Shown: positions 10,039 through 41,362 of the stretch, piece by piece
How positions within the stretch are numbered: position 1 is the stretch's first letter
How the letters are laid out: each line of letters starts with the position of its first letter
Source: Colwellia sp.
GTDB lineage: Bacteria; Pseudomonadota; Gammaproteobacteria; Enterobacterales; Alteromonadaceae
Assembly: GCA_013215465.1 (NCBI GenBank)
Contig: JABSOW010000004.1
Location: forward strand, 186,001 to 250,000
DNA: 64,000 nucleotides
Direction of reading: 5' to 3'
Program-made: the position numbers and the translations under genes
Notes under the pieces: generated by a model
What the model saw: only the letters and a program-made list of their open reading frames with translations
Told to the model about the DNA's origin: nothing
The model's database searches: none

Positions 10039-10263
10039 ATAAGTTGCATTTAAGGTCTGGATTGAGTAATAAAAATGATAAATTACTTGTAATGTCGTGG
10101 TTTGGTTTATTTTTTTCTTTATACCACGATATATCGCTTATTTTCAGGCTTAAAATTGTAATTATTAAACTGCAATTAGAAGCAAGGCACGCACTTTTGC
10201 TTATATCAGCCTGTTGATTTAGTACGACTGCATGACCGAACCAGTTTTACTGAGTTTCAGATA

Positions 10264-10294
10264 CAAAAAAGCCCGCTATAAAATAACGGGCTTT
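10264..10294 (-). terminator. Rho-independent terminator after nosZ
   Basis: AAAGCCCG (10268-10275) pairs with CGGGCTTT (10287-10294). Read on the minus strand the stem is followed by TTTTTT. It lies downstream of the nosZ tail remnant and would separate the nosRZ transcript from nosDFYL, in agreement with a separate nosD promoter. Confidence 0.85.
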
Positions 10295-10328
10295 GAATAT
10301 ACTTAGTTTACTGTTGTTATATTAAAGT

Positions 10329-10367
10329 CTACGCTTCTACTAACATACGATCACGCATTTCCACGCG
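10329..10367 (-). pseudogene. Remnant second copy of a nosZ 3' end
   Basis: On the minus strand this reads (R)VEMRDRMLVEA-stop, matching the true NosZ C-terminus [12 protein letters not shown]-stop at 10384-10423. Eleven to twelve codons are preserved including the stop position. Most nucleotide differences are synonymous (for example LVEA is tta gta gaa gcg here and ttg gtt gaa gct in nosZ). It starts within about 16 bases of the intact nosZ stop, in the same orientation, and directly precedes the terminator. Confidence 0.7.
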
Positions 10368-10383
10368 GTCTGTTTACTTGGTC

Positions 10384-12282
10384 TTAAGCTTCAACCAACA
10401 TTCTTCCACGCATTTCCATGTGTAATGCGTGACAGAACCAGTTACAGTAATACCATTGTACGCCTGGTTTATTCGCCGTAAAAGTTATAGAGGCAGTTTG
10501 TTGCGGACTAATTTCCATTTGCACACCATGGTTAGTCATACAGAAACCATGAGTTACATCTTCAACTATATCAAGGTTAGTAATAACGACAGTAACTTCG
10601 TCACCTAATTTAACTTTAAATTCAGTTAAGCCGTAGGTTGGTGCTACTGACGTCATGTAAACGGTAACTTTGTTTTTGCCCTTACGAATAACTTTATTGT
10701 CACTCATTAAGTCAATGCCATCTGCTTTAGCCCTTGCTACAGTAGAGGCAAACATAGGGTCATCACGTTCCCAAACCTTTTTAGTTTTGATTTTACTGCG
10801 ATGTACCATAATACAATCATGTGGTTCAGCGAAAGTAGGACCGTCATGTACAAGTTTCATTTCATCACCAGAAATATCAAACAATTGATCGTTTTCTGGT
10901 TTAAGTGGTCCAGTAGGTAAGAATCTATCTTTAGAGAACTTACATAATACCACTAACCATTTGCCATCAGCATCACGTGATTCACCTTGTGAGGTATGGT
11001 TATGTCCTGGTTGATAATGCACATCGATTTTTTGGCGAAGGTAATTAACTTTCTCACCGTTATGGGCTTTAATCGCATCTTCAACGTTCCACTTTGCCAC
11101 TTGGCTATCAAGAAATAACGTTGTATATGCGTTACCGCGGCCATCAAAAGCGGTATGTAATGGTCCTAAACCTAACTCTGGTTCAGCAATTACAACATCA
11201 CGTGGCTTGATTTTATCGTTAAATAAATCAGGTAATTTTTTAATAGAAATAATTGATACAGTTGGTGATAATTTACCATTCACCATAAAATACTTACCAT
11301 CTGGTGAGGCATTTATACCGTGTGGTGATTTTGGAATAGGAATATAACGCGTTAATTCAGAGCCTTTACGGCCATCTAAAACTGGCACATTGTTACCATT
11401 ATACGTTTTAAATTTACCGGCTTTAACCGCTGCTTCACAACGAGCAAGGCTGAAAACAACGACATGATCACGTTCTGCAGAAATCATCTCACCTAAATTC
11501 ATACCCATTTCTGAGTTATATGAAGTAGAAGCAAAATATTTTCCATCAAAATCAGCGTCGGTATTATCTAAGTTACCATCAACCATAACTTGGAAAGCCA
11601 TTTCCATGGTTTCAGCGTTAATGACGTTAAAGAGTGAACGGTAAGTACTAACATCTTCCATGCCAGATTTACCATCATTATTCATCGGGATTTCAAATTC
11701 ACCGTTACAAATAATGTACTTAGTGTAAGGTACTTTTTGTACGCGTAAGCCATGAACTGCTTGGATGTTAGGTACATGTAAAATTTTATCGGTTTTCATT
11801 ACATCACAACGGATACGGGCAACACGGGTATTGGCTTTATCGTTGATAAAAACATATTTACCATTGTAATGGCCATCAGTCATAGACATGTGTGGATGAT
11901 GACAATCACCGGTAACATAATCGCTATTTAAGATTTCTTTTGATTCATTGGTTAAACCGTAACCGGTAGCGTTATCAAGGTTAAATACAGGGATGCGCAT
12001 TAATTCACGCATTGAAGGAACACCCATAATACGGATTTCGCCTGAGTGACCACCAGACCAGAAACCGTAGTATTCATCTAATTCGCCAGGAGCTACATGC
12101 GGTGAATTAGCCGTTTTACTCGATTTTGCTTGTGCCATTGAGGTGAACATAGCAGCACTCATTGGTGCCGCTATAGCGCCTGCGCCGATTAGTGCAGTTT
12201 TACCGAAAAACTTACGGCGACTTTCATCTTCCAATTTCACGTCATTGGAGTCATTAATTACAGTTAATTCTTCTTTACTCAT
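10384..12282 (-). CDS. nosZ: Nitrous oxide reductase NosZ (Tat-exported)
   Basis: 632 residues. It catalyses N2O + 2e- + 2H+ to N2 + H2O in the periplasm. The N-terminus carries a twin-arginine signal ([15 protein letters not shown], about 21-35), as in clade I NosZ. A seven-bladed propeller holds the CuZ histidines ([12 protein letters not shown] and later HTAF and EPHD motifs). The C-terminal cupredoxin domain has the CuA ligands in [16 protein letters not shown] precedes the ATG. It follows nosR by 73 bp and ends just before a duplicated fragment of its own tail. Confidence 0.97.
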
Positions 12283-23984: not shown

Positions 23985-25268
<1,284 letters not shown>

Positions 25269-25333
25269 TTACTTCTTACTTATAAATGAATAAAATTAAT
25301 TGACTAGGTGACCAGTATTGCATGCCTTTACAT

Positions 25334-25435
25334 ATTAAACAATTTGTCACCTTGCCATTGTGCTTTCGTAAAGGTTTTTACGTTTATCAGCTATGCGCAT
25401 GTATACTGTTTTCTTTAATAGTATCGGCTAATGTA
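25334..25435 (-). pseudogene. Remnant second copy of the ibaG 3' end
   Basis: Bases 25334-25380 match 25446-25492 (inside ibaG) at 46 of 47 positions. After an 8-base length difference, 25397-25435 match 25501-25539 at about 31 of 39. On the minus strand the remnant reads TLADTIKENSIHA, then after a frameshift KTFTKAQWQGDKLFN, clearly homologous to the IbaG C-terminus (TLADAIKDGSIHA...KTFTKAQWQRDKLFN). It is in the same orientation and offset by 112 bases. Confidence 0.8.
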
Positions 25436-25439
25436 ATTA

Positions 25440-25691
25440 TTATTGATTAAACAATTTGTCACGTTGCCATTGTGCTTTCGTAAAGGTTTTTACCGTCACG
25501 GCATGTATACTACCGTCTTTAATGGCATCAGCTAACGTAGCAAATACCACTTGTTGACGTTTAACACGTGATAAATCACCAAACATATCAGCTACGGCTA
25601 CAACACTGCATTGTGAACCATCAAACTTTATTTGCAGTTCATCAAGCACTAATGCGTCATTGATTAATTTTTCAATTTCTTTTACTTCCAA
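25440..25691 (-). CDS. ibaG: BolA-family protein IbaG
   Basis: 83 residues from the TTG at 25691. This start has AAGGA seven bases upstream and gives LEVKEIEKLI, matching the usual IbaG N-terminus; the ORF-track start at 25733 would add 14 unlikely residues. BolA/IbaG proteins bind monothiol glutaredoxin with an Fe-S cluster; IbaG is linked to acid resistance. The conserved segment SVVAVADMFGDLSRVKRQQ holds the BolA loop, and C-terminal HAVTVKTFTKAQW is typical. It lies between mlaB and murA. Confidence 0.9.
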   Translation of the reverse strand: MEVKEIEKLINDALVLDELQIKFDGSQCSVVAVADMFGDLSRVKRQQVVFATLADAIKDGSIHAVTVKTFTKAQWQRDKLFNQ

Positions 25692-25789
25692 GGGGAATTC
25701 CTTAATAGGGTTTAATTTATTTGCGAGAAACACTTATCACAAAGAGTAGAGCTGCCCATTGTGCCAATGATAAAAAATAATAACATCTA

Positions 25790-26098
25790 TTATTTAACTG
25801 GCAAAAAGCCTTCAACACCACTTAAGCTAATAAGCTTATCTAGTTTAGTCGGTATATTAGCAAAAGATAATTGGCAATTAGCAAGATCTGCTTGCTCTAA
25901 TAAGTAAAAAAGCCAAGCTAATCCTGCGGTATCAATGCGAGTTATGCTCGTTAAATCAAGTATCGTAGACGATGGTAAAAATAATTGTTTAATACTTTTT
26001 TTAGTTATTTTCATAATCGTGTGTCGAGTTAATTCACCACTGAGCTCTACCAGTTCAGCAGTAATATTCAACACTATTTTTGGCGTAAGTTCAGACAC
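25790..26098 (-). CDS. mlaB: MlaB STAS-domain subunit of the phospholipid transporter
   Basis: 102 residues, a single STAS domain. The core is LDLTSITRIDTAGLAWLFYLLEQA, with the conserved Thr at the helix start. MlaB is a cytoplasmic subunit that supports the MlaF ATPase in the MlaFEDB complex. It lies three bases after mlaC and is the last mla gene. Confidence 0.88.
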   Translation of the reverse strand: MSELTPKIVLNITAELVELSGELTRHTIMKITKKSIKQLFLPSSTILDLTSITRIDTAGLAWLFYLLEQADLANCQLSFANIPTKLDKLISLSGVEGFLPVK

Positions 26099-41137: not shown

Positions 41138-41145
41138 AAAGTAGT

Positions 41146-41362
41146 GACGAGTAAACGAGTGACGAGTAAACGAGTGACGAGTAAACGAGTGACGAAAACA
41201 CCATATTCTCTACAAGTTGTCTTCGATACTCGTAACTATAAACTCGTTTACTAAATAGTTATGGACGAAAAGTTGTGAGTAATGGAAGTTGCGAGTTGCG
41301 CAAGCACCATACCCTCAACAAGTTGTCTTTGATACTCGTAACTATAAACTCGTCACTAAGAA
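41146..41362. repeat. ACGAGT-family complex repeat (15-bp tandem array plus ~60-bp direct repeat)
   Basis: Three perfect tandem copies of GACGAGTAAACGAGT cover 41146-41190 and a partial fourth follows. After them a block of about 60 bases (41199-41260, CACCATATTCTCTACAAGTTGTC...ACTCGTAACTATAAACTCGT) is repeated at 41305-41366 with few changes. It lies between convergent darP and tldD. Confidence 0.85.

Follow-up and report, generated by a model that had tools for sequence, protein, structure and literature searches.

The 3' end of ibaG is repeated in the gap between ibaG and murA of the Colwellia sp. genome analysed here (the host, G000), and we consider it quite probable that the repeat descends from an old tandem duplication of the gene end, whose extra copy has been kept similar by local recombination. 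With both genes on the minus strand, the non-coding remnant (25334-25435 of the window, the 64,000-nucleotide stretch of DNA that was analysed) follows ibaG and precedes murA, in the same orientation as the coding tail from which it derives (25446-25539). The two copies were identical at 47 of the 48 positions of a core, with a spacing of 112 bases, and then at 31 of 39 (79%) in a more diverged segment with a spacing of 104, a difference that corresponds to a net insertion of 8 bases in the distal copy (Table 1). This is the tail repeat with an indel that the original prediction had described. Local BLASTN of the two copies gave an E value of 2e-22, and when the whole window was compared with itself the pair was the strongest repeat (E = 1.5e-17). 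The ibaG-murA locus occurs once in the host genome, and a search of six ibaG-murA loci for structured RNAs returned no Rfam match up to an E value of 1.

Table 1. Features of the ibaG-murA region of the host, in window coordinates.
Feature	Position	Strand	Basis
ibaG coding sequence (97-aa ORF, BolA-like; start uncertain; present TAA stop in repeat junction)	25440..25733	-	orthologues in 39/39 genus genomes
Proximal (coding) copy of diverged 39-base segment	25501..25539	-	local alignment
Proximal (coding) copy of 48-base core	25446..25493	-	local alignment
Junction between repeat units, with present ibaG stop (CAATAA)	25436..25445	-	sequence and relatives
Distal (non-coding) 39-base segment, 79% identical	25397..25435	-	common to G017, similar in G030
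Stretch with 8-base net insertion, boundary of homogenised core	25382..25396	-	alignment
Distal (non-coding) core copy, 47/48 identical to gene	25334..25381	-	alignment
Putative murA promoter: TTGTTT (25337-25342, within distal tail), 17-base spacer, TGC-AATACT (25314-25319)	25314..25342	-	conservation
murA coding sequence	23985..25262	-	ORF

The gap was compared across 39 genomes of the genus, one per species, where its length ranged from 57 to 400 bases (64 to 400 within the 15-species clade of the host). Tail copies between ibaG and murA were found in 7 of these 15 species, with a maximum of three per gap: three in G017 (period 112) and in G016, two in the host, G026 and G030, the second one decayed in G030, and a decayed copy in G022 and G028. 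No second copy was visible in the remaining eight (G001, G034, G036, G025, G007, G031, G032 and G037). In the single-copy relatives G001, G034 and G036, ibaG ends in ATGTAA and is followed by (A/G)(G/T)GCATG(C/T)AATACT. The end of the gene in G001 reads ...TTTAATATGTAAAGGCATGTAATACTGG, and in the host that sequence comes after the distal copy, not after the gene, whose own end reads ...TTTAATCAATAATAATTACATTAG and is the junction between repeat units. Judging from these sequences, the ancestral junction between the ibaG end and the murA promoter is the one on the distal copy, not that at the present end of the gene.

The distal core was closest to the ibaG of its own species in G000, G017 (second copy), G026 and G016, the own gene ranking first in all four, and the spacer was clearly common to G000 and G017, with that of G030 resembling theirs. 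A shared spacer together with an own-species core means that the duplication predates the similarity of the core, which must have been restored separately in each line. Own-species similarity would also be expected if every line had duplicated its tail recently and independently, but the shared spacer would then be left unexplained. Neither G016 nor G022/G028 has a spacer that matches that of G000, which implies that the copies either arose more than once or drifted heavily; on these sequences, ibaG tails have probably been duplicated more than once at this gap. The homogenised core is limited at one side by the 8-base insertion and ends near the stop at the other, as expected if pairing requires unbroken similarity, and this bounded core accounts for the uneven identity that had been read as partial gene conversion; a partial homogenisation is indeed what the interspecific spacer and the own-species core support. 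As in tandem arrays, the copies are head-to-tail and vary in number among relatives, and, as in concerted evolution, likeness within a genome exceeds likeness between genomes despite the older origin.

We propose that a tandem duplication in an ancestor would have copied about 111 nucleotides of the ibaG 3' end. Of the two copies, the proximal one would have gone on encoding the end of the protein, its stop codon now being part of the junction CAATAA, and the distal one would have retained the old ibaG end joined to the murA promoter region. The junction could plausibly derive from the ibaG codons CAACAA by one base change, giving an in-frame unit of 111 bases; the present unit of 112 bases counts against such an in-frame origin. 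Recombination between copies, whether unequal exchange, slippage or gene conversion, may then have altered copy number and held the 48-base core like the coding tail of each species, the part beyond the 8-base insertion being left to drift. Similar events would have been repeated at other Colwellia gene ends, where copies past a stop codon are tolerated. The ibaG feature is likely a by-product of recombination with promoter DNA on its distal copy, not a dedicated system.

Part of the murA promoter probably lies on the distal copy. Nine species of the clade conserve the putative elements, including species whose copy is otherwise decayed, and TTGTTTAATANGTAAAGGCATGCAATACT persists on the distal copy in each of G000, G017, G022 and G028, although the remainder decays in the last two. 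The distal tail might accordingly have been kept as the upstream part of the promoter, its identity to the gene being due to selection and not to recombination. We regard this as improbable, because selection of that kind explains neither the species' own synonymous variants across the 48-base core nor the eight relatives with a single copy, and the promoter match is weak, TTGTTT/AATACT not being flagged by a consensus promoter scan; such selection may nonetheless act together with the proposed tandem duplication. A lost integrative element could likewise account for a same-orientation repeat downstream of the gene: entering at the ibaG 3' terminus, it would have rebuilt the gene end from a copy that it carried, displaced the old end to the distal position and left both behind on its loss. 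Such a scar is very improbable here: the gaps of the 39 genomes measure only 57-400 bases and hold neither an element nor an integrase, the DNA separating the cores derives from ibaG, the tail had no match in viral contigs, phages or plasmids, and no distant tail copies appeared among the matches listed from 299 family genomes. No mobile element was found. In separate observations on the murA leaders of G016, G026, G030, G031 and G032 (L006, L008, L011, L012 and L014), an inverted repeat resembling GCTGCTCA...TGAGCAGTTCCC was conserved around the -10 region, and the loci compared with Rfam gave no match.

The original prediction had also considered allele replacement. In such a case, DNA recombining in from another Colwellia would have met the resident allele within the gene's tail, so that one allele's tail remained downstream of the other. 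This fits flgC, whose remnant adjoins an imported flgD (see below), and a diverged patch upstream of the ibaG tail and another in murA point to recombination nearby. At ibaG itself the idea found no support and we judge it unlikely, since the mla and murA trees agree in placing the host in the same five-species clade, with no conflict indicating a distant donor across the junction, the identity to sister species is level over the tail, the spacer and the start of murA, and the distal core matches the host's own gene at 47 of 48 positions. Arrays with three copies would require tandem events regardless. From these comparisons, a distant donor at ibaG is not needed. An apparent sisterhood of G000 and G017 in murA was set aside, as it came mostly from a local murA patch and not from the ibaG end. 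Further upstream, at about 25580-26095 of the window (mlaB and 5' ibaG; -655 to about -140 from the ibaG stop), the host was only about 70-84% identical to its sisters, versus about 87-92% on the flanks, which suggests either that this DNA came from an unsampled lineage or that it changes fast.

The ibaG repeat is real but modest, and the more interesting part is a genus-wide tendency, which rests on partial genome samples. The tails of 1019 ORFs were compared with the DNA downstream of them, over 1.26 Mb of the host in stretches and with a score threshold of at least 20. This lenient scan, with permutation, head/upstream and reverse-complement controls, replaced a strict one that missed weak remnants such as that of nosZ. 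It returned 11 same-strand tail matches, versus 0.2-0.6 in permutations, none in reverse complement and three in the head/upstream comparison. Real and spurious matches were sorted by eye, and after removal of simple repeats nine were judged to be real tail remnants, namely those of flgC, rseP, aceA, ibaG, nosZ, pilC and three others; we take the gene names of these loci from recognition of their sequences, without a family search. No tail remnants were found in 1197 control ORFs sampled from G022, G014, the more distant genus G060 and 300 kb of E. coli (Fisher p = 0.0009 for host versus controls; 0.003 without the two cases of the window that had prompted the scan). The asymmetry between tails and heads in the host (9 versus 2, by our own classification) was not significant (p = 0.065). 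Matches set aside as not being tail remnants comprised CRISPR arrays, a broken transposase cluster, a repeat protein and the repeated extragenic elements of E. coli.

The same genes recur in other Colwellia species, where the tails of nosZ, flgC, rseP and pilC are also repeated; second copies were seen for rseP in G028 and G031 and for pilC in G026 and G030, and the aceA tail copy was seen in the host alone. These recurrences, and nine remnants in 1019 ORFs where 0.2-0.6 were expected and 1197 controls gave none, support the proposal of a general process in this lineage, and the scan of gene tails against downstream DNA that had been suggested as its check did reveal an excess in the 1.26 Mb covered. 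The prediction had added that the remnant would be an ordinary old duplication if all related strains carried it unchanged and no excess of such pairs existed: several relatives do carry it, but not all of them and not unchanged, and the excess exists. An active process that preferentially copies Colwellia gene 3' ends just downstream, some of the copies being put to use as promoter-upstream DNA (ibaG-murA), translated mini-genes (flgC) or tail-terminator units (nosZ), seems to us quite unlikely. A literature search retrieved no description of such gene-tail arrays in Colwellia. Other than at ibaG, tail duplications of the host were noted at L069:10072-10950 (recent, 339 bases at 98%), L083:2559-4440 (aceA-like with terminator, 83%), L084:3855-4900 (an ABC-transporter gene junction, 92%) and L113:2416-4000 (rseP-like, 72%).

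Allele replacement does find support at flgC. In the flgC-flgD region of the host (L087:18723-19285), a 95-base remnant repeats the flgC tail at 91% identity, and the flgD allele that comes next belongs to another Colwellia group. The trees conflict at the remnant: flgD of the host groups with G010/G012/G035 (support 100/99) and its flgB-flgC with G001/G017/G036 (98/98). The position of the remnant at the junction with an imported flgD fits a contribution of allele replacement at this locus, in line with that idea of the original prediction. Tandem arrays of the flgC tail were present in relatives: two species had 2.6 and 4.6 copies of 158 bases. In G015 the tandem copies reach about four. In 10 of 11 species the remnant forms an open frame that has an ATG of its own and shares the reading frame of the flgC tail, and its copies differ mostly at third codon positions, even when diverged. 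A translated stretch inside an operon would avoid polarity, and this is a likely reason why the flgC remnant would have stayed open.

The nosZ remnant, which had been credited with a geometry comparable to that of ibaG, is weaker but real, with 34 bases at 79% and a further 18 bases at 89% farther down. It encodes MEMRDRMLVEA*, which aligned against 11 residues of the nosZ tail, and decayed array pieces occupy the region downstream of the host nosZ (window 10229-10418). Arrays in relatives confirm it: in three other Colwellia loci (L223, L227 and L219) there are 3-5 units of 153-260 bases, each made of nosZ tail plus terminator, and one single-contig Colwellia genome carries 4.6 copies of a 156-base tail-terminator unit.

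Among known systems, minisatellite-like tandem arrays undergoing concerted evolution share with the ibaG repeat the head-to-tail copies, the variable copy number and the greater likeness within than between genomes. Unlike them, the ibaG unit is the coding end of a gene, one copy is under coding constraint and serves as master, and the same genes are affected in several species. The attL/attR sites of integrative elements in gene 3' ends are alike in the downstream, same-orientation repeat of a gene end, whereas at ibaG there is no element or integrase, the DNA between the repeats is gene-derived and the tail was absent from the phages and plasmids searched. Merodiploids (e.g. PMC3784515), partial gene duplications formed by homologous or illegitimate recombination during transformation, resemble our cases in having a truncated copy beside the full gene, and flgC-flgD does lie at an import junction; in contrast, no foreign donor was seen at ibaG. 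If the proposed duplication and homogenisation are correct, Colwellia gene ends would be hot spots at which small tandem duplications arise and are then homogenised locally, coding DNA could be watched there as it turns into intergenic DNA, and the parting of a gene end from the promoter of the next gene, without losing either, would be explained. A repeated gene end need not mean an attachment site or a scar of transfer.

Two other repeat regions were noted. Downstream of a tldD/pmbA-like gene, positions 41138-41353 of the window hold non-coding tandem repeats, with two 62-base copies at 87% identity (spacing 106) and 15-base repeats. L079:1-470 is a CRISPR array with the repeat GTTCACTGCCACGCAGGCAGCTTAGAAA, presumably of the type I-F kind.
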